Part shown: positions 25,470 through 43,167 of the stretch, piece after piece
Layout of the letters: every line of letters starts with the position of its first letter
How positions within the stretch are numbered: position 1 is the first letter of the stretch
Source: Spirochaetota bacterium
GTDB taxonomy: Bacteria; Spirochaetota; UBA4802; UBA5550
NCBI GenBank assembly: GCA_003246895.1
Contig: QKCL01000082.1
Location: forward strand, 1-56,571
Length of the DNA: 56,571 bases
Reading direction: 5' to 3'
Made by a program: the position numbers and the translations under genes
The notes under the pieces: generated by a model
Seen by the model: the letters and a program-made list of their open reading frames with translations, nothing else
Database searches by the model: none
What the model was told of the DNA's origin: nothing

Positions 25470-28400
25470 ATGTCTAATAAAACTATGAAGTCAATGGACG
25501 GTAATATGGCTGCGGCCCACGTAGCCTATGCTTTTACTGAAGTTACCGCCATTTATCCAATTACACCTTCTTCGCCGATGGCTGAGCATGTTGATGAATG
25601 GGCATCTCATGGCAAAAAGAATATATTTGGAAATGTAGTTAAAGTTGCAGAATTACAGTCGGAAGCAGGTGCATCCGGTGCTGTACACGGGTCACTTCAG
25701 GGTGGAGCCCTGACAACGACTTTTACAGCATCTCAGGGACTTCTTCTGATGATTCCTAATATGTACAAGATAGCCGGGGAGCTGCTTCCTGGAGTTTTCC
25801 ATGTTTCTGCAAGAAGCCTTGCTGCACAGGCGCTTTCCATTTTTGGAGATCACGCTGATATCTATGCAGCCAGGCAGACCGGATTTGCAATGCTTGCCAG
25901 CGGCAGTGTTCAGGAGGTTATGGACCTTGGAAGTATCGCGCACCTTGCGGCAATAAAAAGCCGAGTGCCTTTTATGCATTTCTTTGACGGATTCAGAACA
26001 TCCCATGAAATACAGAAAGTTGAAGTCATAGACTATGACGATCTGAAAGGTCTTATTGATTATGATGCTGTTGTGAGATTCAGAAAGAATGCCCTTAATC
26101 CGGAACATCCTGTAACAAGGGGAACTGCACAGAATCCTGATATATACTTCCAGGCAAGAGAAGCTGCAAATCCTTTCTATAACAGCCTCGATGACACAGT
26201 AGCTGATTATATGAAGGAGATCAGTAAAATTACCGGCAGAGACTACAAGCCCTTTGTTTATTACGGAGCTCCTGACGCAGAAAATATAATCATTGCCATG
26301 GGATCTGTTACAGATACAATCAAGGAAGTAGTTGATTACCTGAATGCAAAGGGAGAAAAGGTCGGTCTTGTCTGTGTACACCTGTACAGGCCATTCTCCG
26401 CTAAATATCTACTTAATGTGGTTCCGTCGTCCGTTAAACGTATAGCCGTACTTGACAGAACAAAGGAGCCGGGCGCAAATGGCGAGCCTCTCTATCTTGA
26501 TATCAGAGATGTATATTATGGAAAAGAAAATGCTCCACTCATTGTTGGGGGCAGGTACGGTCTTTCTTCAAAAGACACAATTCCTTCTATGATTGCATCA
26601 GTATATGATAATCTTAAACTTCCTGAACCAAAGAACAGATTTACAGTCGGTATCGTCGATGATGTGACCTTTACATCCCTTCCAGTTGGGGAGACTCTTG
26701 ATGTTGCCCCGGCAGGTACAATCCAGGCTAAATTCTTTGGAATTGGTTCCGACGGAACTGTCGGTGCGAATAAAAACTCCATAAAGATTATCGGAGACAC
26801 TACTGATCTTTACGCACAGGCTTACTTTGCCTATGATTCCAAGAAATCCGGCGGTGTTACTGTATCACATTTGAGATTTGGTAAGGAGCCCATAAGGTCT
26901 ACCTACCTGATTACAAAACCTGATTTTGTAGCATGCCACGTTCCTGCATATCTTGACAGCTACGATATCCTAAAGGGACTGAAAAAGAATGGAACTTTCC
27001 TTCTTAACAGTATGTGGTCACCTGAGGAGACTGTTGAAAGAGTGCCTGATAATATCAAGAAGTACCTGGCAGATAATGAAATTAAGTTTTACATGATAAA
27101 TGCCTACGAAATTGCTGACAAAATTGGACTTGGAAACAGGACAAATACAATTATGCAGTCTGCATTCTTTAAACTTGCCAATGTTATTCCATATGAAGAT
27201 GCTGTCCGTGAGATGAAGAGTGCTATTAAAAAGTCATACGGAAGCAAGGGTGATGATATTGTAAAAATGAATAATGCCGCTGTTGACAGTGGTGCTGACG
27301 GTCTGGTTGAAATTCCGGTTCCTGCTGAATGGAAGAACCTTTCTGCAGATTCGAGAAAAAAACGTGAAGGTGTCCCTGAATTCGTCCGTGATATAGCAGA
27401 TCCGATCAATAACCTCGATGGTGATCTCCTGCCTGTAAGCGCCTTTGTTGGCAGGGAAGATGGAACATTTCCATCCGGAACAACAGCCTATGAGAAGAGA
27501 GGGGTTGCGGTAAACGTTCCAGAGTGGATTCCTGAAAACTGTATACAGTGTAACCAGTGTGCTTATGTATGTCCTCATGCGGTTATCAGACCATTTCTAC
27601 TTGATGAGAAAGAAGCTGCATCTGTTCCTGCAGGAACAAAACTTGTAGAGGCAAAAGGTAAAGGTCTTGAGGGGCTGAAGTTTAAGATACAGGTAAGTCC
27701 TCTTGACTGTACAGGATGCGGTAACTGTGCGGATGTATGTCCTGCAAAAACAAAAGCTCTTGAAATGAAGCCGCTTGACAGTCAGATGGAAGAAAAAGAG
27801 AGATGGGACTATATGCACGGAAATGTGACATATAAAGATACATTCATGGCTAAAAATACCGTTAAGGGAAGCCAGTTTGCTCAGCCTCTGTTCGAATTTT
27901 CCGGAGCCTGCGGCGGTTGCGGGGAGACTCCGTATATAAAACTCATTACACAGCTTTTTGGAGACAGAATGGTTGTTGCCAATGCAACAGGCTGTTCGTC
28001 AATATACGGCGGTTCTGCTCCTTCTACTCCTTACTGTACAAATGCAGCCGGACATGGACCAGCATGGGCGAATTCGCTTTTTGAAGATAATGCTGAGTAC
28101 GGTTTCGGTATTCATCTCGGTATAGAACAGATGAAAAACAGACTGAAGGAGCTTGTAGCACAATATGAGGCAAGCGGAAGTTCATCTGAAATCAAAGCTC
28201 TTCTTTCTGAATGGACAGCTAATACAGAGGATGTAGAAAAAACAAAAGATGTTACAGCAAAAGTTGTTCCTCTCCTTGAAAAGGATGGGTCAGATATTGC
28301 AAAGGAAATCCTTGTTCTGAAACAGTATCTCATTAAAAAATCTGTATGGATTTTTGGCGGAGATGGATGGGCATACGATATCGGTTATGGCGGTCTTGAC

Positions 28401-28988
28401 CATGTTGCTGCAATGGGAGAAGATGTTAATATTCTTGTAATGGATACTGAGGTTTATTCAAATACAGGCGGTCAGGCATCCAAGGCTACCCCGACAGCAG
28501 CTATCGCAAAATTTGCGGCGTCTGGAAAGAAAATACGTAAAAAAGATCTTGGTATGATGATGATGTCATACGGCTATGTATATGTTGCCCAGGTTGCCAT
28601 GGGATCAAATCAGGCTCAATATCTTAAGGCTCTGCAGGAGGCTGAAGCTTATCCAGGACCATCTGTGATTATCGCATACGCCCCTTGTATAAATCACGGG
28701 CTTCGTGCCGGAATGGGTAAAACCCAGAATGAAGCAAAGCTCGCAGTAGAATGCGGATACTGGCAGCTCTACAGATATAATCCTCTTCTGGAAAAAGAGG
28801 GCAAGAATCCGTTTATCCTTGATTCCAAGACTCCAGATTACAATAAGTTCCAGGATTTTCTGAAAGGAGAGGTAAGATACACTTCGCTTCTGAAGGAATT
28901 CCCTGAAAATGCTGGTGAGCTCTTTAAGGCTGCAGAGGATAATTCCAAGTGGAGATTTGAGAAGTATAAAAAACTTTCTGAAATGTAA
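25470..28988 (+). CDS. nifJ: Pyruvate:ferredoxin (flavodoxin) oxidoreductase
   Basis: Single-chain enzyme of 1172 residues converting pyruvate and CoA to acetyl-CoA, CO2 and reduced ferredoxin; a core step of anaerobic energy metabolism. Domains in order: pyrimidine-binding TPP domain (AVAYAFTEVTAIYPITPSSPMAEHVDEW region), CoA/transketolase-C-like domain, gamma domain, the double [4Fe-4S] ferredoxin domain with CIQCNQCAYVCP (about residue 690) and CTGCGNCADVCP (about residue 745), and the C-terminal TPP-Mg domain with GGDGWAYDIGYGGLDH (about residue 963). A further CGGCGE near residue 814 begins the proximal cluster site. All key cysteines are present. Strong AAGGAG ribosome site; followed by a terminator. 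Confidence 0.97.
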   Translation: MSNKTMKSMDGNMAAAHVAYAFTEVTAIYPITPSSPMAEHVDEWASHGKKNIFGNVVKVAELQSEAGASGAVHGSLQGGALTTTFTASQGLLLMIPNMYKIAGELLPGVFHVSARSLAAQALSIFGDHADIYAARQTGFAMLASGSVQEVMDLGSIAHLAAIKSRVPFMHFFDGFRTSHEIQKVEVIDYDDLKGLIDYDAVVRFRKNALNPEHPVTRGTAQNPDIYFQAREAANPFYNSLDDTVADYMKEISKITGRDYKPFVYYGAPDAENIIIAMGSVTDTIKEVVDYLNAKGEKVGLVCVHLYRPFSAKYLLNVVPSSVKRIAVLDRTKEPGANGEPLYLDIRDVYYGKENAPLIVGGRYGLSSKDTIPSMIASVYDNLKLPEPKNRFTVGIVDDVTFTSLPVGETLDVAPAGTIQAKFFGIGSDGTVGANKNSIKIIGDTTDLYAQAYFAYDSKKSGGVTVSHLRFGKEPIRSTYLITKPDFVACHVPAYLDSYDILKGLKKNGTFLLNSMWSPEETVERVPDNIKKYLADNEIKFYMINAYEIADKIGLGNRTNTIMQSAFFKLANVIPYEDAVREMKSAIKKSYGSKGDDIVKMNNAAVDSGADGLVEIPVPAEWKNLSADSRKKREGVPEFVRDIADPINNLDGDLLPVSAFVGREDGTFPSGTTAYEKRGVAVNVPEWIPENCIQCNQCAYVCPHAVIRPFLLDEKEAASVPAGTKLVEAKGKGLEGLKFKIQVSPLDCTGCGNCADVCPAKTKALEMKPLDSQMEEKERWDYMHGNVTYKDTFMAKNTVKGSQFAQPLFEFSGACGGCGETPYIKLITQLFGDRMVVANATGCSSIYGGSAPSTPYCTNAAGHGPAWANSLFEDNAEYGFGIHLGIEQMKNRLKELVAQYEASGSSSEIKALLSEWTANTEDVEKTKDVTAKVVPLLEKDGSDIAKEILVLKQYLIKKSVWIFGGDGWAYDIGYGGLDHVAAMGEDVNILVMDTEVYSNTGGQASKATPTAAIAKFAASGKKIRKKDLGMMMMSYGYVYVAQVAMGSNQAQYLKALQEAEAYPGPSVIIAYAPCINHGLRAGMGKTQNEAKLAVECGYWQLYRYNPLLEKEGKNPFILDSKTPDYNKFQDFLKGEVRYTSLLKEFPENAGELFKAAEDNSKWRFEKYKKLSEM

Positions 28989-29321: not shown

Positions 29322-30056
29322 ATGATGCTTAAAGATTATTTTTTGGAAATAAACAAGAAAACCGTAAAAAAAACTGCAGCCAAAAAGGCCGCATCCAAGA
29401 AAACGACATCCAAAAAAGTGACTTCGAAGGGAAGTACCGAAAAGATAGATATAAAATATCTCACAGAGAGGATTTCATCAATATCTCCTTCAAACATAAA
29501 AGTCGGGCCATACAAGCCCATTGACCAGTCAGGTTTTTCACCTGAAGGTGCAGATCTTATTGCATACGAAAATTACTGTGAGGCACTCCCCGAGATTTTT
29601 AATAATTACATTCCATTTGAACTGATAAAGGGAGCGTATTTTTTTGTTGAAGAACTTTCCAAGACCAGTCTTGCTGAGGTATTGAACAGGGTTTCTACGG
29701 TAAAAAGAATAAACAGGTTTGTTGAGTCAGAAAACAGCTTTAATCTTCCATCATTTATTGTCGCAGGCCCTCCTGAAAGTTATTCCCTGCTTGATATTAA
29801 AAACGATCTGACTAATTATTATATCTCAAAGAGTGTGGAGAGTGAATCTGAATTTGAGATTCTGGCTGTTATCAATTACGGTATTATAGTCAAGGACTGG
29901 AATCATGGAGCCAGAAGCTTTATTGCACTGGAAACCGCCGAGGATACACTGATGTGGCTTTTTGTACTCATGAATGAATATCTGGACATTGAAAGAGAAG
30001 AATCATTTGATTTGAGAAGTTATATAAAAAACGAAAAGGTATATAATGAGTATTGA
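29322..30056 (+). CDS. Unknown protein with a lysine-rich histone-like N-terminus
   Basis: A 244-residue cytoplasmic protein. Residues 12-41 are almost only Lys, Ala, Ser and Thr (KKTAAKKAASKKTTSKK), like the tails of bacterial histone H1-like proteins, and may bind nucleic acid or polyanions. The rest is a mixed alpha/beta domain (FNNYIPFELIKGAYFFVEEL, then FEILAVINYGIIVKDWNHGARSF) that I do not recognise. AAGGACGG precedes the start; ATG at 29322 or 29325 are both possible. It has its own promoter and opens the cluster containing the vWA protein and CfpA. A similar tail occurs on TatC in this window. Confidence 0.6.
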   Translation: MMLKDYFLEINKKTVKKTAAKKAASKKTTSKKVTSKGSTEKIDIKYLTERISSISPSNIKVGPYKPIDQSGFSPEGADLIAYENYCEALPEIFNNYIPFELIKGAYFFVEELSKTSLAEVLNRVSTVKRINRFVESENSFNLPSFIVAGPPESYSLLDIKNDLTNYYISKSVESESEFEILAVINYGIIVKDWNHGARSFIALETAEDTLMWLFVLMNEYLDIEREESFDLRSYIKNEKVYNEY

Positions 30057-30134
30057 AAATTAGTGCATAATATTTGTTGACATTGATTTTTAAATGTATT
30101 AGCCTTTAAAAAAGTTAGTTTAATAAAGGGGAAA

Positions 30135-31280
30135 GTGGTGGAGAAAAGAACAAGTTTTAATAAATTAACCCGTCTTTTTGTTTTATTTTCTGTTTCACTT
30201 GTACTTATTCTTAGTTCTGTTAACGCCAGGGCTGAAAACAATAAGGATGTAATCCTTGTTCTTGATACTTCAATGAGTATGATAGGCTATGGCGGCAAAA
30301 ATATCATGCCTGATGTTAAGGACAGCATAAACAAGTATGTTGACGGTTTAAAAGACGGAGATAGAGTTACGTTTATCACCTTTGATAAAGATGTGAAAGT
30401 CTTTCCAACCGTTCTCATTGATGATAAAAATGACAGGGATATCGTAAAGAAATATATTTCGGTAACCGAGGCGAAAGGTGAATGGACCTTTACAATGAAA
30501 ATGCTTAATCAGGTTTTTTCTCTGGCAGACAAGATTTCAAAGGAGAACGGCACCAGTAGAAATCTTGTAATTCTTATAATGACAGACGCACTTGATGATC
30601 CTCCGCCCGGTAAAAGAAAAGACAAGTTTAATCTGAAAAATATTGCAGACCAGTATAGCGGAAAGGACTGGTGGATATATCTGGTAAATCTCGCTAATCT
30701 TAAGGAATCATCAAAGTTGAGGCAGGCTCAGGAAAAACTCAAGGGTGAGCTTTCAAAGATAAGTGAAAATTCCCAAATTGTGGATGGAAGTGATCCATAT
30801 AAGGCAATTAATGAAAAAATTCAGCCTGATATAGCAAAGAAGGAGAGGGTTCAATTTATAATCTTTATTCTTCTGGCATTGGCCGCAGTTCTTGGATGTC
30901 TGCTGGTTCTATTCCTGGTTATAAAGAGAATCAAATCTGTGAAACTTGTCGGCGTTCTTGAATTCTGGAATCATGAGCTTCTCAAACCTGAGGTTGGAGT
31001 TGCACACCTTGAGAGATACAATGCAGGTATGATTATTGTTGGAAGGGTGCCAGGTTGTCAGCTTAAAATAAGGGAATATGAATCACGTATACCATTTACT
31101 TTAAAAGCGTCAAGGATAAATGGTGAGGTGAAAGTTCAGTTACTGGTTCCGGAGGGATTGAATTCCCATTTTAAGAACAAGGAAGCAGGCAATACCCTTG
31201 AAAATGGAGATATTTTCCAGGTTGAAAACTACAGCTTTAGATATTTGGCTGAAAATTTATCTGAAGATAAGAATTTATAA
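30135..31280 (+). CDS. vWA-domain membrane protein with a cytoplasmic FHA-like domain
   Basis: A 381-residue protein. A signal peptide (cleavage after ARA, about residue 33) leads to a von Willebrand A domain (about 37-230) with an intact MIDAS metal site: D44-T-S46-M-S48, Thr118 and Asp151. One membrane helix spans about 241-263. The last 110 residues look like an FHA domain (VGRVPGCQLKI, then NTLENGDIFQVENYSFRY), placed in the cytoplasm by the topology. In T. pallidum the vWA protein TP0750 lies near cfpA, as I recall. GTG start; AAAGGGGAAAG upstream. A TTGACA at 30077-30082 may belong to its promoter, without a clear -10. It may connect periplasmic ligand binding to the cytoplasmic filament. 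Confidence 0.75.
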   Translation: MVEKRTSFNKLTRLFVLFSVSLVLILSSVNARAENNKDVILVLDTSMSMIGYGGKNIMPDVKDSINKYVDGLKDGDRVTFITFDKDVKVFPTVLIDDKNDRDIVKKYISVTEAKGEWTFTMKMLNQVFSLADKISKENGTSRNLVILIMTDALDDPPPGKRKDKFNLKNIADQYSGKDWWIYLVNLANLKESSKLRQAQEKLKGELSKISENSQIVDGSDPYKAINEKIQPDIAKKERVQFIIFILLALAAVLGCLLVLFLVIKRIKSVKLVGVLEFWNHELLKPEVGVAHLERYNAGMIIVGRVPGCQLKIREYESRIPFTLKASRINGEVKVQLLVPEGLNSHFKNKEAGNTLENGDIFQVENYSFRYLAENLSEDKNL

Positions 31281-31329
31281 AAAGATAAATAAAACCTTTA
31301 TTTAAAGGTGTAAAATTATTAAATAAATG

Positions 31330-31359
31330 TTGACATAATAAATATTGAATGATTATATT
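31330..31359 (+). promoter_or_regulatory. Strong promoter of cfpA
   Basis: TTGACA (31330-31335), 18-base spacer, TATATT (31354-31359). It is followed by a roughly 80-base AT-rich leader and a consensus AAGGAGGT ribosome site at 31433-31440, eight bases before the ATG, which fits an abundant protein. Confidence 0.65.
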
Positions 31360-31447
31360 CGTTAATATTAAAAATTATATATTTAACAAATTATTGAAGT
31401 AAATTAAGAAATAACTGTTTTCTTATATATCCAAGGAGGTCTTAAAC

Positions 31448-33430
31448 ATGTCTATAGGTCAATTCCCCAAAAGCCCTAATAAGGTTCACCCTACAGTCCC
31501 AAGTGCGGTTGGTTCGAGGGAATCAATTGTTCAGGAGGGAAGGGATAAAGTTGCTGAGGCTGACCTTATTCTGAATGAAACTTATGATAAAGTTCTGAAT
31601 CACATTCAGACTAAACTCCCAGAGGAAGTTCTTAAGGAACTTGATGTTATGGGTGGCTTAAAAGAGAAGTTATATAATTACATCAACCAGACATATGTAA
31701 ATATGTTTAACAGATATACTGTTACAATGGAAGATGAATTTCTGAAAAAAGTCAGAGACTTTGTAGACAAGGAAGAGGCCAAGGGTTTGGCAAGGTATAC
31801 ACCGAAAGAGATTGTTGAAATTCTCGATAAAGTAGGTGGTGCTGATAAATTCCACACTGGTGAAATTGAAAAATCCATCGTAAACATGTATGGTCACCTT
31901 CAGGGACATATTCAAAGGGGAGTAAACGACCTCGAAGTTGAGACTAACTCAATATTAAGACAAAAAACTGATGTAGGGGCATTCGTACGAGGTGAAAATG
32001 CCTATGCGATCCTTAAATGTGTCTTCAAGGATAATGAATTAAGACCAAAATATGTATATGATGTAAAGCTATCGATCAATATTCTTGAAAGTGAGCTCAT
32101 TAGTCCAATGTATCACTATCAGGTTACTGTTGAATCAATCATGAAAGATACAATACAGAAACATATTCAGGACCTTATTGAAAAGCAGGTTGAAAAGTTT
32201 AACGACGAACTTGTTGATCAGGGTAAAAATGAATTAAATGCAAGCGAAAAGATGTTTGAAAAAGTGAAAAGAATTGAAAATTTCACTGATGATGAGAAGG
32301 AAGATGAAAAGTCAAAAAGATATACAATTCTTGCTAAAAAATTCCTCGATAAAATTGAGGGACTCAGAGCAGAAATTGATGTAGAGGATATGGATCCTCT
32401 TAATGTTCGGGAAAACATCAAGTACATAATTGATGAGGAGAATATCAGAAACAGGGGTTATAACACATGTATTAACTCTATCACTTCAATTCTCGATACA
32501 AGTAAACTCGGTTATCAGGTATGTGATAACATGAAGAATGCAAGGATTTGCAGAATCAGTGAGTATGAAGAAACTGACAAAATGATTCTACCAGATGAAA
32601 GATATACAATAAGAATGGCGTATTATGATCAGAATCAGCTAAAAGAGTCTAAAAAAGAGTATGACAAGCAGGTAGCCGCATTTACAACAGAGATTGGTAT
32701 GGCTTGGGATGTAGTACATGCTCATTATGAATCCAAAAAAAGGTTCAGGTCATTACAGGATTTTGAAGACCTGAGTGCAAGACTTATGAACAAAGAGTGG
32801 AAGAGGCAGAAGAAGGATTATGACACCGATCCTGATAATGTACTCTGGAATGAAATTGGTGAAATGTATATTGAATCAACATTCGTTGAAAAAAATAACA
32901 GAACGTATGAAGACAGATATAAAAACCTTAAGGGAAAACTTACTTATCTTAAAGATAAACTTGCTAAAATGCACGGTTATCAGAACCCTGTTGAGAGAGT
33001 TATTCTTGATGAAAGACTAAGTTTCCTTGAAAAGAGGTTTAACGAGTTTACACATCTTGTTAACCCGCATCATATTCAGCCTGGACTGGTTCTTGATATT
33101 GACATTACAACAATAAAGAGAAAGCAGTATATACTGAAGAGTATGGCAAATGTCCTTAATGAGTTCCTTTACAGTGTATCTAAAGGATTCGCAGATGCTG
33201 CCTTTGCTACATATTCAAGAAGAAGATCTACAGTCAGGGATGATATTTCACAATCATTCGGAGAAGAAGAGATTGGAGAAGATCTTTTTGAAACTGCTTA
33301 CAGATCTGATTCAGGGTCTAATATTGACCTTACTGCTTCTCCTGAAATTTCAGGACAGGTTCAGCTTTCTCCAGATGTTTCTTCAAGAAAATCTAAAAGG
33401 AAAAGTTCCGGCGGTCTGAAAGAACTTTAA
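31448..33430 (+). CDS. cfpA: Cytoplasmic filament protein A
   Basis: A 660-residue, highly charged, mostly helical protein that I recognise as spirochaetal CfpA, the subunit of the ribbon of cytoplasmic filaments that lies under the inner membrane along the flagella. Recognisable stretches include NMYGHLQGHIQRGVNDLE, RQKTDVGAFVRGENAYA and DPLNVRENIKYIIDEENIRN. Length agrees with the treponemal protein (about 680). No signal peptide or membrane helix. The last 60 residues are low-complexity and Ser/Arg/Lys-rich. A consensus ribosome site, a strong promoter and an immediate terminator indicate high, single-gene expression. Recognition is from memory of the family. Confidence 0.75.
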   Translation: MSIGQFPKSPNKVHPTVPSAVGSRESIVQEGRDKVAEADLILNETYDKVLNHIQTKLPEEVLKELDVMGGLKEKLYNYINQTYVNMFNRYTVTMEDEFLKKVRDFVDKEEAKGLARYTPKEIVEILDKVGGADKFHTGEIEKSIVNMYGHLQGHIQRGVNDLEVETNSILRQKTDVGAFVRGENAYAILKCVFKDNELRPKYVYDVKLSINILESELISPMYHYQVTVESIMKDTIQKHIQDLIEKQVEKFNDELVDQGKNELNASEKMFEKVKRIENFTDDEKEDEKSKRYTILAKKFLDKIEGLRAEIDVEDMDPLNVRENIKYIIDEENIRNRGYNTCINSITSILDTSKLGYQVCDNMKNARICRISEYEETDKMILPDERYTIRMAYYDQNQLKESKKEYDKQVAAFTTEIGMAWDVVHAHYESKKRFRSLQDFEDLSARLMNKEWKRQKKDYDTDPDNVLWNEIGEMYIESTFVEKNNRTYEDRYKNLKGKLTYLKDKLAKMHGYQNPVERVILDERLSFLEKRFNEFTHLVNPHHIQPGLVLDIDITTIKRKQYILKSMANVLNEFLYSVSKGFADAAFATYSRRRSTVRDDISQSFGEEEIGEDLFETAYRSDSGSNIDLTASPEISGQVQLSPDVSSRKSKRKSSGGLKEL

Positions 33431-33450
33431 AAAAAAAGAATTATGAATAA

Positions 33451-33487
33451 AAAAAAAGGAGGATTTTCAATCCTCCTTTTTTTTTAT
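33451..33487 (+). terminator. Terminator of cfpA
   Basis: AAAGGAGGATT (33455-33465) and AATCCTCCTTT pair perfectly around a TTC loop, flanked by an A-run and a long T-run. It ends 82 bases before the next gene, which therefore needs its own promoter. Confidence 0.9.
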
Positions 33488-33568
33488 ATAATATTCGAAT
33501 AGTGCTTGTAAAAACGTTATTATAAAGACATTATTTATAAGAGTGTTTAATAAATAGGAGATCATAAT

Positions 33569-34486
33569 ATGGAAACTACATATTTTTCACTAGGTTCAAA
33601 GGCTGCATTTAATAAAGCCTTACGTCATTTTTTTAAAGTTAATGAGGCGGTAGAGGAAGTTGATTCACGTGTAAATATTGCAGATTATATTAACGAGTTA
33701 ATAGATGATGAAGAGATACACCAGGATCAGATTTTGCCGATTATAGGTTCTGTAATCAGGGATAAGTTTGCATACAGCAACAGATCAATAAATATCCCTT
33801 CTAATATAACGAATTTTGATAAAATAATAAATGAAACAGTTAAGTGGACTGCATTGGATATCGTTGCGGTATATTTTACACCTGATGGGCATAGATCGGT
33901 AATTAATCCCAAGGGCCTTGACAGCTGGGAACGTGTCCGTGAGTTATCTGCAGACCAGCTTATTGTGCTCTATGTTAAAGATCTAAAAGAGGATGACAAG
34001 AGTGTTGAGACTGAAGCAATTAAGACTCTTGAAGATCTGATTTTTGGAAAAGATGTCTTCAGCAATAAAAAATTCGTTGATAATACTGTTGCAGAAAAAC
34101 CAAAAGATGTTGTTGCTCAGGAAAAGGTTGTTGCTTCGCAACCGGTGAAGAAAAAGAGAAATATAACACCAAAATATGGAGTTCAGGTTTCAAATGAGTT
34201 GTTTCACAATGGAAATGTTGAAGCCTGGAAAAAAATTGTGGAAAGCTACCATACTAAATATCCGGAACTTGAAGTTCATATTATGTTTGAAGGTGAAGTG
34301 ATAAATGATATAAACTCATTGTTTAAATGGGGAAAAGTTAAGCACGGAGATACCATCTTTTTTCAGGTATCAGGAGAGAATATTTTAGGGGTTTCAAAGC
34401 TTCAAAAGTACCTTTATGAAGGGGCAAGTCCAAGATTTGAGCAGTTCTTAAAGCTTGGTGTTGGTAGAGTTCTAAATCTTTTCTAA
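33569..34486 (+). CDS. Unknown protein with a C-terminal HPr-like domain
   Basis: A 305-residue protein. Residues 1-150 form an unrecognised domain (INELIDDEEIHQDQILPIIG), 160-198 a linker, and about 199-284 align with HPr, the PTS phosphocarrier: YGVQVSNELFHNGNVEAW in place of the GLHxRPA strand and helix, then LEVHIMFEGEVINDINSLFK and HGDTIFFQVSGE, matching the SLF and GDxIxxxxxGE positions. His213 falls on the phosphorylated histidine; the Arg-Pro that follow it in HPr are replaced by Gly-Asn, so phosphorylation is uncertain. It lies between cfpA and the PPDK-like gene, 28 bases before the latter, so a partner relation is likely. In T. pallidum TP0747 has this position, as I recall. Confidence 0.6.
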   Translation: METTYFSLGSKAAFNKALRHFFKVNEAVEEVDSRVNIADYINELIDDEEIHQDQILPIIGSVIRDKFAYSNRSINIPSNITNFDKIINETVKWTALDIVAVYFTPDGHRSVINPKGLDSWERVRELSADQLIVLYVKDLKEDDKSVETEAIKTLEDLIFGKDVFSNKKFVDNTVAEKPKDVVAQEKVVASQPVKKKRNITPKYGVQVSNELFHNGNVEAWKKIVESYHTKYPELEVHIMFEGEVINDINSLFKWGKVKHGDTIFFQVSGENILGVSKLQKYLYEGASPRFEQFLKLGVGRVLNLF

Positions 34487-34514
34487 AAATAATTAATGAT
34501 AGAGGTTGAGGTAT

Positions 34515-37115
34515 ATGGATAATATAATATTTTTTAATGATAAACTGAATAATATTGATGAAATAGACAGTTCAAAAATTGGAATTCGTGGCAGAAGGGC
34601 TGTAGAACTAGCCGGTATGGCTTTGCCTATAGTTCCCGGTTTTATTATAGATTCAGAGCTGACAAAAAATTTAAGTCAGGTAAATATAAAAGACAGAATT
34701 CAGACTTATATTTCACAGATTGAAAAGGACATGAATAAACAATTCGGTGATACAAAGAAACCATTAATGCTGAAGGTTGTTTTGAGCTCTGATTTAAATG
34801 TTCCTTTTTTCCCATCAATACATAATATTGGGATGAATGATGAAACAGTTGAAGGATTCGCCCAGTTTACGAATAGTTCTTTTGCATATGGTGAATATCT
34901 TTATTTAATGAGAAATATCTCCACCAAGCTTTTTGATTTTACAGATGAGGACATTCAGAAAGTTGAAGGAAAACTTCCCAAAAAACCTACTGTCGAACAA
35001 TATAAAAAGGCAATTGATACGTATAAGAAAAGTTTTGGCGAAGAGTATGGTGATGATGTATATGATCAGCTTATCTTTGTTATAAAAAAAGCAGCAGAAA
35101 AATATTGTGATTCCGAGATAGACGTTGATAACACTCTTTCAATTATGATACAGTCAATGGTTTATGGTAATTTTGGAGATAATTCATATTCAGGGAGTTA
35201 TTATACAAGAAACATTGTAACAGGTGATAGAGAGATTCAGGGTGATTTCCTTAAAAATGAGTTTGATTTTACCAGCGGAAAGGTTCAGGAGATTAAAAAG
35301 ATAAATAAAGATTATTATGAAAAATTTTCTGAAATAGCCTGCAAAGTTGAGGAAAATTTTAAAGAGATCAGAAATATTAAATTCACCATAGAAGAAGGTG
35401 ATTTCTGGCTGGTGGAGCAGAGAGAAGTTGATGAAAAATCAACTCAGGCTCAGATTAAAACACTTCTTGACCTGAATCAGTCCGGCATTGTGGCTGATGA
35501 TTTTCTGGTAAGCACCATTAAGCCAGGTCAGTTGAATGAACTCCTTCACCCTGTTATTGATCCAAGAACAGTAAAAAACATGAAGACAATAAAGGGTGGT
35601 ATATCCGGATCGACAGGTGCTGCAATCGGACGAGTGTTTTTCTCTACTCCTAAACTGCTTGAAGAATACAAAAAAGCTATAATGAAAGGACAGGATACTA
35701 ATCTTATTCTTGTTCTTAATGCATCCTATGCAGAGGATGTTAAGGCAATCGAAGTTGCCCAGGGTGTCGTTACAAATGAAGGAGGTTTCTCCTCCCATGC
35801 TCCTGTTGTAGCCAGAAGTCTTGGTAAAGTGGCAATGGTGCAACCGGAAATGAAAATAAAGGGGAACACTTTTACAATCGGTGGAAAAACTGTAAAAGAA
35901 GGTGATTATGTTTCAATAAATGTTCCATATTATGAAGAGCCGACTCTGTATCTCGGCAAGGTCGAGCTGATTCAGCCAGACTTTAATAAAAACGGGCTCA
36001 TTGATTTCCTTAAAATTGTAGAGAAATATATTGATGATTTTGATGTAAGGGCAAATGCAGATCAGGGAAGAGATGCAGATGTAGCAAATGAGTTTAAAGC
36101 AGCGGGTATTGGTTTATGCAGAACTGAGCATATGTTCTTTAATGAAAAACGGATCATGAAATTCCGTGAAATGATAATCGCAGAAAATGATAAAGAGAGA
36201 ATTAAGGTTCTTGAGGCCTTAAAGCCTATGCAGAGATCCGATTTCTATGATCTTTTTAAAGCTATGGCAGGGAAACCTGTTACCATCAGACTACTTGATG
36301 CTCCATTGCATGAGTTCCTTCCACGTTCAGAAGACGGGATGAAAGATTTTATCAAATATATGCAGACAAAGAAAAAGGGTGTTGTCGCAGGAGATATAAG
36401 GTCAAGATGTGAGGAACTTGAAGAGATGAACCCCATGCTGGGACACAGGGGTTGCCGTGTGGCTGTTACATATCCTGAGATTTATGAAATGCAGTGCCGT
36501 GCCATCTTTGAGGCAGCGTGCATGCTTCATAAAGAAGGAATAGAAGTTGAGCCCGAGATAATGATTCCTATAGTAATGAGTGAGCAGGAAATTAAGTTTA
36601 TCAAAAACGGTAAGAAAATTGAGGGTACTGTTGTTAAAGGGATAAGAGATATAAAAAATGAGGTACTTGAGGAATATGGAATTGATGATATCAACTACCA
36701 TGTTGGTACAATGATTGAATTGCCGGCAGCAGCTCTGTTGGCTGGATCAATTGCCGAGTATGCTGAATTCTTCAGTTTTGGTACAAATGACCTGACACAG
36801 ACTACATTTGGATTGTCAAGAGATGATTCCAACTCATTCTTCCCAGACTATTCACTTTTTGACCTTATGAAAAGTAACCCATTCAAGGTCCTTGGACAGC
36901 CTGTGAAAGAACTAATAGGTATTGCGTCAATGAGAGGTAAACTGACAAGACCTGATATAAAAATGGGACTTTGCGGTGAACATGGAGCTAATCCGGATAA
37001 TATTGCATTCTGCATTGATGCAGGATTAAATTATGTATCCTGTTCTCCGTTTTCAATCCCACTAGCAAAATTGGGAATTGCTCAGTATAAAATAGAAAAC
37101 AGCAAGGACGAATAA
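34515..37115 (+). CDS. Pyruvate,phosphate dikinase family protein with a degraded ATP-grasp half
   Basis: An 866-residue protein collinear with PPDK. Intact parts: phosphohistidine domain with His428 in GGFSSHAPVVAR; PEP/pyruvate barrel with GLCRTEHMFF, RLLDAPLHEFLP, NPMLGHRGCR, PEIMIPIVM, FFSFGTNDLTQTTFG and the catalytic Cys820 in GLCGEHG. Degraded parts: the GGKG lysine loop reads GIRG (residues 23-26), the VRSGAR block reads KVVLSSD, and the QGEDVVAG block after GDFL is missing. So it probably still forms phosphohistidine from PEP but may not use ATP and phosphate. Start at ATG 34515 with AGAGG at 34501-34505. Annotated as ppdK in T. pallidum (TP0746, from memory). A terminator follows. 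Confidence 0.8.
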   Translation: MDNIIFFNDKLNNIDEIDSSKIGIRGRRAVELAGMALPIVPGFIIDSELTKNLSQVNIKDRIQTYISQIEKDMNKQFGDTKKPLMLKVVLSSDLNVPFFPSIHNIGMNDETVEGFAQFTNSSFAYGEYLYLMRNISTKLFDFTDEDIQKVEGKLPKKPTVEQYKKAIDTYKKSFGEEYGDDVYDQLIFVIKKAAEKYCDSEIDVDNTLSIMIQSMVYGNFGDNSYSGSYYTRNIVTGDREIQGDFLKNEFDFTSGKVQEIKKINKDYYEKFSEIACKVEENFKEIRNIKFTIEEGDFWLVEQREVDEKSTQAQIKTLLDLNQSGIVADDFLVSTIKPGQLNELLHPVIDPRTVKNMKTIKGGISGSTGAAIGRVFFSTPKLLEEYKKAIMKGQDTNLILVLNASYAEDVKAIEVAQGVVTNEGGFSSHAPVVARSLGKVAMVQPEMKIKGNTFTIGGKTVKEGDYVSINVPYYEEPTLYLGKVELIQPDFNKNGLIDFLKIVEKYIDDFDVRANADQGRDADVANEFKAAGIGLCRTEHMFFNEKRIMKFREMIIAENDKERIKVLEALKPMQRSDFYDLFKAMAGKPVTIRLLDAPLHEFLPRSEDGMKDFIKYMQTKKKGVVAGDIRSRCEELEEMNPMLGHRGCRVAVTYPEIYEMQCRAIFEAACMLHKEGIEVEPEIMIPIVMSEQEIKFIKNGKKIEGTVVKGIRDIKNEVLEEYGIDDINYHVGTMIELPAAALLAGSIAEYAEFFSFGTNDLTQTTFGLSRDDSNSFFPDYSLFDLMKSNPFKVLGQPVKELIGIASMRGKLTRPDIKMGLCGEHGANPDNIAFCIDAGLNYVSCSPFSIPLAKLGIAQYKIENSKDE

Positions 37116-37130
37116 TCTATTTCTTATTAT

Positions 37131-37170
37131 AAACAAAAAAAAGAGTGCGCAATGCACTCTTTTTTTTGTT
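37131..37170. terminator. Bidirectional terminator between the PPDK-like gene and pgk
   Basis: GAGTGC (37143-37148) pairs with GCACTC (37154-37159); flanking A-run and T-run extend the stem to about 14 pairs (AAAAAAAA against TTTTTTTT). It serves both converging genes. Confidence 0.85.
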
Positions 37171-37182
37171 TATGTGTTATGT

Positions 37183-38364
37183 TTATTTTAGCGCTTCAAT
37201 TCCAGGCAACTGTTTTCCTTCAAGAAGTTCAAGAAAAGCACCCCCTCCAGTGGAAATATATGATATTTTATCCTCGACTCCAGCCTGATTTATCGCAGTG
37301 ACACTGTCTCCACCTCCAACAATGCTTAAGCAATCTGAATCGGAGAGTGCAAATGCAATCTGGTTCGTTCCGTTTGCAAAATTCGGCATCTCAAATGCTC
37401 CCATTGGGCCATTCCATATAATGGTTCTTGCTTTGCTGATTTTCTCTTTGAATAATTCAATGGATTTGGGGCCGATATCGAGTCCAATTGAGTTGTTTTC
37501 AATGGAACTGATGTCACATATTTCTGTTTTTGAATTATTATCAAATTCCTCCGCACATATAATGTCTACTGGCAACAGTATTTCAATTTTTTTGCTCTGT
37601 GCTTTGTCAAGAATTGATTTTGCTTCATCAAGCAGTTCAGTTTCAAGCAGAGAGTTTCCAACTTCATAACCCTGGGCTTTTAAAAAGGTGAAGGCCATGC
37701 CTCCTCCAATAATCATGAAATCGACCTTGTCTATAATATTTTGAAGAGCGTCGAGTTTGCTCGAAACTTTTGCCCCACCTATAATCGCTCCAAAGGGTCT
37801 TTCTGCGTTTTCAAGAGTCTTTTGACTATATTCGATTTCATTTTTAAGGAGAAAACCGGCACACTTAACATCAACATATTTTGTTACAGCCCAGTTCGAT
37901 GCATGGGCGCGGTGGGCAGTGGCGAAGGCATCATTTACATATACATCACAATGCGAAGCAATGAGTTTTCCGAAATCCAGATCGTTTTTCTCCTCTTCGG
38001 GATAAAATCTTATGTTTTCAAAGAGTACAATTTCTCTCTGTGACATTTTATTGGTTATATCTATAGTTTCTTTTCCAAGAGGTGTCTCTATGAAATTAAC
38101 AGGCTGTCCCATTATTTCGGAAAGTCTGCTTGCAACCGGTTTCAATGTCATTGTTTCATTTATCTTGCCTTTCGGCCTGCCCAGATGAGATATCAGTATT
38201 ATTTTGGCATCATTTTCAAGACAGTATTTTATCGTGTCAACGGTGGCCGTAATTCGTGTATCATCTGTAATATTGAGTTCCTTATCATATGGTACATTAT
38301 AATCGACCCTTATTAATACTCTTTTGTCTTTTACGCTTATCTCATTAAGATATTTAACAGCCAT
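37183..38364 (-). CDS. pgk: Phosphoglycerate kinase
   Basis: Glycolytic enzyme of 393 residues making ATP from 1,3-bisphosphoglycerate. N-terminal RVDYNVP, SHLGRPKG and ENIRFYPEE; the hinge GGAKVSSKLD; and the nucleotide-binding C-terminal part GPMGAFE, SIVGGGDSVTAI and STGGGAFLELLEG are all intact. It is the last gene of a three-gene minus-strand operon (MORN protein, tatC, pgk) with gaps of about 20 bases. Confidence 0.97.
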   Translation of the reverse strand: MAVKYLNEISVKDKRVLIRVDYNVPYDKELNITDDTRITATVDTIKYCLENDAKIILISHLGRPKGKINETMTLKPVASRLSEIMGQPVNFIETPLGKETIDITNKMSQREIVLFENIRFYPEEEKNDLDFGKLIASHCDVYVNDAFATAHRAHASNWAVTKYVDVKCAGFLLKNEIEYSQKTLENAERPFGAIIGGAKVSSKLDALQNIIDKVDFMIIGGGMAFTFLKAQGYEVGNSLLETELLDEAKSILDKAQSKKIEILLPVDIICAEEFDNNSKTEICDISSIENNSIGLDIGPKSIELFKEKISKARTIIWNGPMGAFEMPNFANGTNQIAFALSDSDCLSIVGGGDSVTAINQAGVEDKISYISTGGGAFLELLEGKQLPGIEALK

Positions 38365-40226: not shown

Positions 40227-41021
40227 ATGATGAGATCACTCTGGACAGCTGCATCAGGTATGGTCGGGCAGCAATTTAACATTGATACTATTTCAAATAA
40301 CTTGTCAAACGTTAATACTACAGGTTTTAAAAAGCAGAGAGCAGAATTTGAGGATCTGCTTTATCAGACTGTATTAATGGCTGGAACACCGGCAACTGAA
40401 ATTACAGAAATACCAACAGGTATACAGGTCGGTCATGGAGTTAAGGTTGCCGCTACACAGAAAATGTTTGAACAGGGCAGTCTTCAGAATACTGAGAATA
40501 AACTTGATATTGCCCTTGAGGGAGAAGGATTTTTTAAAATAAGGCTTTTTGACGGTTCAATGGCATATACAAGAGATGGCTCATTTAAAATAGACTCCAA
40601 CAGGCAGATCGTTACATCAAATGGATTTTTATTGGAACCTCCTATTGTGTTGCCGGAGAACTTTATACATAATTCACTGTCAATAAGTCAGGACGGTAAG
40701 ATGACTGTTAAAATTGTAGGTGAAGAAGACCCTGTTGAAGTTGCTCAGATGGAGATTTACCGTTTTGTCAATCCTGCCGGTCTCAGCAGTATAGGAGGAA
40801 ACCTTTATAAAACTACTCCTGCTTCAGGAGAGGAAATTCCCGGTCAGCCTGCAATAGAAGGCATGGCCAAGCTTCATCAGGGATTCCTTGAAATGTCAAA
40901 CGTGAAAGTAGTTGAAGAAATGGTAAATATGATAGTAGCGCAGAGAGCCTATGAAGTAAATTCAAAGGCCATTCAGACTTCAGATTCTATGCTTGGTACA
41001 GCAATTGGACTTAAGAGGTAA
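40227..41021 (+). CDS. flgG: Flagellar distal rod protein FlgG
   Basis: Rod protein of 264 residues. N-terminal rod motif (MRSLWTAASGMVGQQFNIDTISNNLSNVNTTGFKKQRAEFEDLLYQ type) and C-terminal GFLEMSNVKVVEEMVNMIVAQRAYEVNSKAIQTSD are diagnostic. It starts the flgG-flgA-flgH-flgI-flgJ operon; flgF is not upstream. ATG at 40227 or 40230 both follow an AGGGATAATTGG site. Confidence 0.95.
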   Translation: MMRSLWTAASGMVGQQFNIDTISNNLSNVNTTGFKKQRAEFEDLLYQTVLMAGTPATEITEIPTGIQVGHGVKVAATQKMFEQGSLQNTENKLDIALEGEGFFKIRLFDGSMAYTRDGSFKIDSNRQIVTSNGFLLEPPIVLPENFIHNSLSISQDGKMTVKIVGEEDPVEVAQMEIYRFVNPAGLSSIGGNLYKTTPASGEEIPGQPAIEGMAKLHQGFLEMSNVKVVEEMVNMIVAQRAYEVNSKAIQTSDSMLGTAIGLKR

Positions 41022-41024
41022 ATT

Positions 41025-41531
41025 TTGAGAAGAATAGCTCTAATTGCCATTCTCATTCTGTCGTGGTCTGATCTTTTTTCCATGACCCGTATTTTCATGT
41101 TATCCAGGGTAAGTACTTTTTCCGGAAAAAAAATTATGCTTGGTGATGTTGCAAGGATTGAAGGAGAAGATTCAGCAGCTATCGGATCAATCTGTGTGCC
41201 CGACACAGTTTTAAGTGACAATTACATTGACCGGAATGAGATGAAGTCGATCCTTGAGTCAAAATATTCAGGAGCCTATTATCTCGGCGGTTCAGGTGTG
41301 AGGCTGGTGTCAGGAGATAATGAAGAGAACAAAAAAAAGGCTCCTTCCCTGCCTGTGAGGAGGGGAGAAATGATAAAAATTATTGTGAAAAAGAGAAATG
41401 TGAATCTTGAAATTTACGGCACTGTTGAAAGAGATTCTTCTGTGGGAGATATGGTCTTTGTTAAACTTCCAAACGGCAAACGTATTTCAGGACTCATAGT
41501 GGATCAAAGGAAAGTTCTGGTCGAGTTATGA
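41025..41531 (+). CDS. flgA: Flagellar P-ring assembly protein FlgA
   Basis: A 168-residue exported protein with a SAF/FlgA C-terminal domain: RRGEMIKIIVKKRNVNLEIYGTV, DSSVGDMVFVKLPNGKRISG and VDQRKVLVEL. It is short for FlgA, lacking part of the N-terminal domain. The signal peptide is present. TTG start with AAGAGG eight bases upstream. FlgA helps polymerise FlgI; here it lies between flgG and flgH, and overlaps flgH by four bases. Confidence 0.85.
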   Translation: MRRIALIAILILSWSDLFSMTRIFMLSRVSTFSGKKIMLGDVARIEGEDSAAIGSICVPDTVLSDNYIDRNEMKSILESKYSGAYYLGGSGVRLVSGDNEENKKKAPSLPVRRGEMIKIIVKKRNVNLEIYGTVERDSSVGDMVFVKLPNGKRISGLIVDQRKVLVEL

Positions 41532-42163
41532 AAAAAACAGCTTTTATAATAACTATATTTATTGTATTAAACGGCTTAAGTGTTTTACAGGCGGATACAA
41601 TCTGGAGGGACAGGAATATTTATGCTTCCACGGGGAATATTGCACAGGGAGATGTCATTGTTGTCGACGTAATGGATCTTTCTCAGTATAAATTCAACAT
41701 GAAACACAGGGATAATACTGTTTCTGATATCCAGTCCAATCCTGATGTAACAATAACCGGTTTTCTTCCGAAAGTATCACAGAATAAAAATTTCAAGAAT
41801 AACACATCCACAGGTTTTGAAGGAAATACCAAGATAGCCTTTTCCATCGCATCACAGGTTACAAATGTTGGAAACAACGGTGTTATTTCACTCACCGGCT
41901 CGCGTACTTACAGCTTAAACGGTACCACAACAACAGTTACCGTTTCTGGCAATGCCAGTGCAAGAATGATCAAGGCCGGAACAATCTCATCTGACAAGGT
42001 GGCTAATTTTACCATAGCTGTAAGAAGCCGTAAAGACGGAGTTACCATTACTAAAAAACAGATTCAGAATAATGAGACTGCGAATTCACAACTGACCGAA
42101 CAGGAAAAACAGAGGCTTATCATAGATTATATTGAAAAAATCATAAGGGAAATGACAAGATGA
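41528..42163 (+). CDS. flgH: Flagellar L-ring protein FlgH, without lipobox
   Basis: A 211-residue FlgH. Recognised by SLYRD-like TIWRDRNIYAS near the mature N-terminus, GDVIVVDV, ITGFLPKVSQNKNFKN and the C-terminal SDKVANFTIAVRSRKDGV. Typical FlgH is a lipoprotein; this one has a signal peptide ending VLQAD with no cysteine, so it should be soluble in the periplasm or anchored otherwise. In a spirochaete the flagellum stays in the periplasm, so an outer-membrane anchored L-ring would not be needed. Confidence 0.88.
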   Translation: MKKTAFIITIFIVLNGLSVLQADTIWRDRNIYASTGNIAQGDVIVVDVMDLSQYKFNMKHRDNTVSDIQSNPDVTITGFLPKVSQNKNFKNNTSTGFEGNTKIAFSIASQVTNVGNNGVISLTGSRTYSLNGTTTTVTVSGNASARMIKAGTISSDKVANFTIAVRSRKDGVTITKKQIQNNETANSQLTEQEKQRLIIDYIEKIIREMTR

Positions 42164-43167
42164 AGTATTTTTCAATAATTGTTTTTTTCATAATGCTGTA
42201 TGTTAATCTCTTTGCTGAAGTTCAGGTGAAGGTAAAGAATATATGTATCATAGATGGGTATAAATACAATCAGGTTTACGGGTACGGCCTTGTTGCAGGT
42301 TTGCCCGGAACCGGAGACTCGAAGGCGGCACTTGCCGCAGATTCAATAAAAAATCTTCTCCGGACTCTCGGAATAGAAAATGACAAGCCTGTGATGAAAA
42401 ATATAGCGGCAGTGCTCGTTACTGCCCAGCTTTATCCTCATACCAGAATCGGGGACAGGGTAGATGTAGTTATATCATCAATTGGAGACGCAAAGTCACT
42501 AGATGGGGGCTTTCTTATTCAGTCTCCTCTTAAAGGAGCAGATGGAAAAACCTATGTTGTTGCTCAGGGAAAACTGGAGAGCCCTTCTGACAGTTCAGCG
42601 GGCATAGGAAAGGGAATAACTGTTTCCAGAATAAGTAACGGCGGAATAATTGAAAACGAAATCCAGCCGAAATATATTTTCGAAGATAATAACAAAAACC
42701 GGTTTATAAGACTTATTTTGAAAAAATGGGATTACGCTAACGCAGATAAAATTTCAAAATCCATAAAAAAAATATATCCCGATATAAATGCCCTTGTCCA
42801 GGGGGACGGCAAAATTGTTGTTCCGGTAAAAAATGATGTTCCCATAAGCGAATTCATTTCAAAAATTCAGAATATCGAGATCACACCGGAGATAAGAGCC
42901 AGAATCGTTATTGATCAGAAAAATGGTGTTATCGTATCCGGGGGGAATGTAATAGTCTCGGAATCGCTTGTGAGCAGAAAAGGGATGACCATTGAGATCG
43001 AAGGAACCGGAAAAAAGAAACATACAGCGTTTATAAAAGATTCAACTACTGTAAAGGATATTGTCGATATATTAAATGCAATCGGTGCCGATACTGATGA
43101 TACCATTGCGATAATAAAGGCCCTGAAGGATTCAGGGGCATTGCATGCAGAACTGATTCTGAAGTGA
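42160..43167 (+). CDS. flgI: Flagellar P-ring protein FlgI
   Basis: Periplasmic P-ring subunit of 335 residues. Signal peptide 1-19, then IDGYKYNQVYGYGLVAGLPGTGDS, NIAAVLVTAQLYPHTRIGDRVDVVISSIGDAKSLDGG and ARIVIDQKNGVIVSGG, all diagnostic. It overlaps flgH by four bases and flgJ follows after seven. Confidence 0.95.
   Translation: MKYFSIIVFFIMLYVNLFAEVQVKVKNICIIDGYKYNQVYGYGLVAGLPGTGDSKAALAADSIKNLLRTLGIENDKPVMKNIAAVLVTAQLYPHTRIGDRVDVVISSIGDAKSLDGGFLIQSPLKGADGKTYVVAQGKLESPSDSSAGIGKGITVSRISNGGIIENEIQPKYIFEDNNKNRFIRLILKKWDYANADKISKSIKKIYPDINALVQGDGKIVVPVKNDVPISEFISKIQNIEITPEIRARIVIDQKNGVIVSGGNVIVSESLVSRKGMTIEIEGTGKKKHTAFIKDSTTVKDIVDILNAIGADTDDTIAIIKALKDSGALHAELILK

Follow-up and report, generated by a model that had tools for sequence, protein, structure and literature searches.

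A predicted ATP-dead PPDK paralogue and an HPr-like protein as near-constant partners of the cytoplasmic filament protein CfpA

Results

The cytoplasmic filament gene cfpA of a Spirochaetota bacterium lies among five open reading frames (A, B, cfpA, D and E) that sit side by side on the + strand at positions 29322-37115 of a 56,571-nucleotide stretch (GenBank assembly GCA_003246895.1, contig QKCL01000082.1; the whole stretch is referred to as the window). Five neighbouring genes on one strand had been proposed here, and all were found at the expected coordinates. Across the phylum, D and E were near-constant partners of cfpA. Judged by its residues, E is a paralogue of pyruvate phosphate dikinase (PPDK) that is ATP-dead and has an intact phosphoenolpyruvate (PEP) site in Spirochaetota, while D looks like an HPr-type protein by fold, with an invariant histidine. 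We propose that D and E are dedicated CfpA partners and that E accepts phosphate from PEP and hands it on to D, whose phosphorylation would modulate the filament; we consider the case for this proposal evenly balanced. Two near-constant partner proteins can now be named for the spirochaete filament, whose function and regulation have long been a question. The features concerned are the following.

31448..33430, + strand: CfpA cytoplasmic filament protein (NF040882, 903.7 bits; RRRST motif near the C terminus)
33569..34486, + strand: D, with N-terminal helices (residues 3-66), HPr-topology domain 1 (70-158), a linker, HPr-topology domain 2 (203-285) and a conserved C-terminal tail (AlphaFold2, Foldseek and alignment)
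34205..34207, + strand: codon of D His213, invariant (89/89 loci), at the position of HPr His15 and ahead of helix 214-230
34515..37115, + strand: E, a PPDK paralogue with ATP-grasp residues lost and swivel histidine and PEP site retained (Pfam, TIGR01828 and aligned residues)
34578..35495, + strand: former ATP-grasp (nucleotide-binding) domain of E, apparently under relaxed constraint, with K22 replaced by R, R92 by V, E323 by K and Q335 by E
35796..35798, + strand: codon of E His431 (PPDK His455, the swivel phospho-histidine) in the motif EGGFSSHAPVVAR
36030..37088, + strand: PEP/pyruvate-binding domain of E, with the equivalents of R561, R617, D620, E745, N768 and C831 intact (Pfam PEP-utilizers_C, 240 bits)

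D and E accompany cfpA across the phylum

Co-occurrence was scored in 393 Spirochaetota genomes, and gene neighbourhoods were compared at 101 cfpA loci (100 fetched loci and the window). cfpA was present in 137 of the 393 genomes. It occurred together with D in 131 genomes and without D in 6, with D alone in 3 and neither gene in 253; the corresponding numbers for E were 129, 8, 4 and 252. Several of the exceptions were incomplete assemblies, and in G308 D lies at a contig start, where cfpA would be cut off. D was found near cfpA at 89/101 loci and E at 87/101, nearly always in the order cfpA-D-E (C-D-E) on one strand.

The genes remained together in genome content where this order was broken. 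In family f34, A and B separate D from E, which lies further off, D and E still adjoin each other where they lie away from cfpA (G007, G032, G131, G057, G343, G212 and G087), and in family f32 cfpA, D and E are all apart and all present. Genomes with and without the set stood side by side in eight families (f21, f24, f40, f43, f45, f48, f50 and f56). The coupling of filament, HPr-like and PPDK-like genes, which the original prediction had supposed to be ancient, was thus supported as ancient and phylum-wide, and it is kept even without adjacency. Coincidental adjacency, of the kind confined to one or two genomes, was rejected in view of the co-occurrence and by its persistence after dispersal, and the cfpA-D-E coupling looks obligate.

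Two genomes showed unusual copies of cfpA. G303 (locus L210) carries a strongly diverged cfpA with D and E absent, a possible decay of the whole system. G310 has two full-length cfpA genes in one spirochaete chromosome (L096 and L097), and D and E lie beside only one of them.

E is related to PPDK

E is homologous to PPDK (TIGR01828; Clostridium symbiosum 1DIK) over its full length, with the same three-domain order. Pfam matches were PEP-utilizers_C (PF02896, 240 bits) and the phospho-His domain (PF00391, 41 bits); the ATP-binding domain matched weakly (31 bits). Against the PPDK model TIGR01828, E scored 701 bits, below the 843-bit cut-off. The assignment of E to the PPDK family was borne out, but its ATP-grasp residues are lost and it does not qualify as a true PPDK.

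The ATP-grasp residues K22, R92, D321, E323 and Q335 (C. symbiosum numbering) reportedly have a catalytic role in PPDK, a result attributed to Ye and colleagues in 2001. K22, R92, E323 and Q335 were kept in 0/87 E proteins, compared with 30/30 canonical spirochaete PPDKs. In E, K22 is replaced by Arg (86/87), R92 by Val, Ile or Leu (87/87), E323 by Lys or Arg (84/87) and Q335 by Glu, Asp, Asn or Ser. On this comparison with 30 canonical controls, E was rejected as a working PPDK. The equivalents of His455, R561, R617, D620, E745, N768 and C831 were invariant in all alignable E proteins.

Between distant families, the PEP domain was 66% identical in E and 65% in canonical PPDK, while the ATP domain was 37% identical in E and 62% in canonical PPDK. 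Because these identities match canonical PPDK only in the PEP half, that half of E appears to be fully selected and the ATP half does not. In the one-contig genome G212, E is 586 amino acids long, has no ATP domain and lies directly behind D. A single clade united all E-type proteins (support 0.925), and because its deep branches track the spirochaete families, the duplication and the loss of ATP chemistry appear ancient. Full-length E proteins scored at least 1097 bits against the E profile and canonical PPDKs at most 767, with three shorter E-type matches between them (804-940). Most cfpA genomes have a canonical PPDK besides E.

This make-up is what a PEP-driven relay would lead one to expect. 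Reuse of PPDK as a regulatory phospho-histidine protein is also seen in Mycobacterium tuberculosis, whose histidine kinase VadK (Rv1127c) derives from PPDK (PMC13400623). E is its mirror image: VadK has retained the domains for ATP and His but has none for PEP, whereas in E those for His and PEP are retained and the ATP chemistry appears to be lost.

D has a predicted HPr fold

The AlphaFold2 model of D (predicted local distance difference test, 91.5) showed N-terminal helices followed by two beta-alpha-beta-beta-alpha-beta-alpha domains (70-158 and 203-285). The high-probability small-protein matches of this model in Foldseek were HPr and Crh (probability up to 0.99; template modelling score by target about 0.5-0.67). 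His213 was present at 89/89 loci, directly ahead of helix 214-230, as is His15 in HPr. The block NELFHNGNVEAWK was near-invariant, and conservation in the alignment reached far beyond His213. An HPr-like domain had been expected in D; the model has two, the second of which carries the invariant histidine at the active-site position.

The same set occurs in SAR324

Outside the spirochaetes, D homologues were found in SAR324/Lambdaproteobacteria. In the group to which G393 belongs, CfpA was present in 20/52 genomes, usually as three paralogues per genome, and D in 16 genomes, all within the cfpA-bearing set. The locus order was again C-D-E, followed in several genomes by a second cfpA; one or two of the CfpA paralogues lie in this C-D-E(-C) locus and one stands alone (L245, L278; G393-G402, G435-G444). 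CfpA filaments would thus extend to a second group at the phylum level. The literature searched, which lacked most subscription journals, contained neither an account of CfpA outside spirochaetes, SAR324 included, nor a description of D or E as filament partners. SAR324 also has short single-domain relatives of the D C-terminal domain outside the locus (L345-L347), in which GN[VI]EAW is kept and the histidine is replaced.

TP0746 of Treponema pallidum

In the single-contig genome G056 (1,139,633 bases), E lies at 810740-813364. Because these coordinates match those of TP0746 in PMC10013896, we treat G056 as T. pallidum or a very close relative. The expected T. pallidum gene order (vWA, cfpA, TP0747, ppdK) was correct, with the vWA gene divergent there. 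No pyruvate kinase was found in G056; its best match to the PPDK model was the E-type protein, and it has no canonical PPDK. TP0746 has been predicted most likely to make ATP and pyruvate from PEP (PMC10013896). Contrary to that prediction, its residues indicate that TP0746 is the ATP-dead E form and probably not a PPDK, and its reading as a PPDK in T. pallidum is challenged. Other routes from PEP would be PEP carboxykinase with oxaloacetate decarboxylase, or Enzyme I (EI) and HPr.

A wider reading can be put forward tentatively, at rather less than even confidence. A second, PPDK-derived relay resembling the phosphotransferase system (PTS) and running from PEP through E to D would serve a bacterial cytoskeletal filament exclusively, would go back to the spirochaete ancestor and would be common to SAR324. 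T. pallidum, with neither pyruvate kinase nor true PPDK, would be left without either kind of ATP-yielding PEP-to-pyruvate enzyme, and TP0746 would be the first protein of the relay.

Discussion

In the proposed mechanism, E would have arisen from a PPDK duplication older than the spirochaete radiation and would then have lost its ATP/AMP chemistry. The phosphate of PEP would be taken up by the swivel histidine of E in the manner of Enzyme I, and His213 in the C-terminal HPr-fold domain of D would be the likely acceptor of this phosphate from E. The phosphorylation state of D would be set by the PEP:pyruvate ratio and would probably modulate the filament, tying it to the energy state of the cell. 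The presence of D and E beside cfpA suggests such a metabolism-sensing switch. We infer the transfer from PEP through the E histidine to the D histidine from conserved residues and give it roughly an even chance; the action of D on CfpA is conjecture. If the mechanism is true, a PTS-like relay is coupled to the cytoskeleton and a PPDK has been turned into an Enzyme-I-like protein.

The expected chemistry, from PEP to one histidine and on to another in an HPr-fold protein of the neighbouring gene, and the homologous His and PEP domains recall PTS Enzyme I/HPr (and PTS-Ntr with EI-Ntr and NPr). Unlike these, D and E go with a filament gene and not with sugar uptake. Such a relay would be independent of the sugar PTS, and G105 retains D and E with no EI or HPr match.

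Several results weigh against a PEP relay. E had no PF05524 (EIN, the HPr-docking domain) in the Pfam search. D matched no Pfam family, including HPr (PF00381), and had no sequence match in the PDB; profile-profile comparison with HPr (hhalign) was weak (P about 0.01-0.02), so D was rejected as an ordinary HPr by sequence. The Foldseek E-values of D against HPr were above 0.05 despite the high probability, and D, a double and divergent HPr-like protein, reads HNGN in place of the HPr motif H-x-R-P, without the Arg. Canonical EI and HPr were present in nearly all genomes tested, including that of the window, so that a second relay might be superfluous. No acceptor is known. The results from SAR324 speak most strongly against an obligatory PEP relay and leave room for a scaffold role. 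E was complete there at L245 and L278 only and was otherwise taken from partial loci; its swivel histidine was retained and its PEP site was lost in all C-terminal pieces read. The CfpA-D-E(-CfpA) locus and the histidine of D are nevertheless kept. As the PEP site is gone from the SAR324 E pieces read, a PEP relay is not indispensable there, and any SAR324 relay would need another donor.

The SAR324 locus, kept with its PEP site destroyed, fits an alternative that we find possible but doubtful, in which E and D serve the filament as structural or assembly components. E would then be a pseudo-PPDK scaffold or a PEP-binding sensor without phosphotransfer, and the D motif (NELFHNGNVEAWK...LFKWGKVKHG) a CfpA- or E-binding surface and not a phospho-site. 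The conservation of D far past its histidine agrees with this, and GN[VI]EAW is kept in D paralogues that have no histidine, which argues that a large part of the motif serves something other than phosphorylation. However, the Spirochaetota E proteins keep every catalytic residue of the PEP half together with the histidine, and their PEP domain is constrained as in a working PPDK, beyond what scaffolding or sensing by itself would require. The swivel histidine is kept even in SAR324 E.

It is improbable that D receives its phosphate from the ordinary PTS Enzyme I (or is a Crh-like decoy) with E acting only as a binding partner or phosphatase. The near-universal EI and HPr would allow this, and the three SAR324 genomes tested have a long Enzyme I (771-836 amino acids) alongside an E with a dead PEP site, but D lacks the HPr Arg, G105 keeps D and E with no EI or HPr match, and the preserved PEP site of spirochaete E would be left unexplained. 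Somewhat less credit is due to the reading of E as a working glycolytic PPDK, as annotated for TP0746, whose place beside cfpA is incidental. The overall similarity of E to PPDK and the published statement on TP0746 (PMC10013896) are in its favour; the ATP-grasp residues absent from 87/87 E proteins and kept in 30/30 canonical PPDKs, the relaxed or deleted ATP domain and the canonical PPDK found besides E in most of these genomes oppose it. That cfpA, D and E are ancestral neighbours inherited together without a functional link accords with the adjacency inherited across most of the phylum, but is scarcely credible when their co-presence survives dispersal in several lineages, they are jointly present or absent inside eight families and SAR324 has the same set with D only in cfpA-bearing genomes.

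CfpA, the vWA protein and other features of the locus

The identity of the third gene as cfpA is certain, with a score of 903.7 bits against the NF040882 cut-off of 500. The protein is an ordinary CfpA, as in the Treponema filament; its constant partners D and E went undescribed in the literature searched. A near-invariant RRRST(V)R motif preceded the variable C-terminal tail in 99/101 spirochaete CfpA proteins and resembles a basophilic Ser/Thr kinase site. The CfpA of G212, the genome whose E lost its ATP domain, does not have this motif.

29322..30056, + strand: A, a conserved unknown with a Lys-rich N terminus, found with B in the window's gene order and in family f34 (40/101 loci)
30135..31280, + strand: B, with an N-terminal helix, a vWA domain (periplasmic), a transmembrane helix and a cytoplasmic FHA-type beta-sandwich (Pfam VWA, 42 bits; AlphaFold2 model; Foldseek vWA matches)

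A had been described as Lys-tailed; its Lys-rich stretch sits at the N terminus instead. For B, a periplasmic vWA and cytoplasmic FHA-like protein had been proposed. The vWA domain stands (Pfam, 42 bits), and the Foldseek matches listed were vWA proteins. In the AlphaFold2 model an N-terminal helix is followed by the vWA domain (37-217), a long transmembrane helix (221-268) and a C-terminal beta-sandwich (274-371), for which an FHA-type fold is plausible. However, its phosphothreonine-site residues were poorly kept (Arg304 in 12/43, with Lys in 16; Ser317 in 5/43), and the conserved GR and SxxH/SR were lacking. B was accordingly rejected as an FHA phosphothreonine reader paired with the CfpA RRRST motif, and a phosphothreonine link through B is not supported because the FHA-like domain is without conserved binding residues.

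In the window's gene order B precedes cfpA on the same strand, in Treponema-type families it is divergent, and in many families no B was found near cfpA among the 101 loci. B is therefore tied to cfpA less closely than D and E are. The T. pallidum vWA protein is short, without the membrane/FHA part. Together with the poor conservation of the binding residues, these results do not bear out the suggestion that a vWA/FHA protein universally links the filament to the envelope.

33458..33486, + strand: terminator-like hairpin GGAGGAT..ATCCTCC with a T run, between cfpA and D (sequence)
37128..37174, + strand: terminator-like hairpin 3' of E, ahead of the converging pgk gene

The hairpin and T run between cfpA and D were present at 24/26 loci with the window's own gene order, and in other families (f8, f10, f21, f28 and others) the median cfpA-D gap was only 8 bases. 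The hairpin points to a strongly transcribed cfpA and either partial read-through or separate transcription of D and E, and would be in keeping with an abundant filament and scarce D and E. Judged by the ribosome-binding site, E probably starts at ATG 34515 rather than TTG 34506.

Canonical PPDK was not found in the window's genome (a 95.7% complete assembly). Its pyruvate kinase (G000:C48) has 596 amino acids and a C-terminal phospho-His domain. The locus is flanked by pyruvate:ferredoxin oxidoreductase (25470-28988) and converging phosphoglycerate kinase (37183-38364) genes, and the flagellar rod/ring genes flgG, flgA, flgH and flgI lie downstream (40227-43167).

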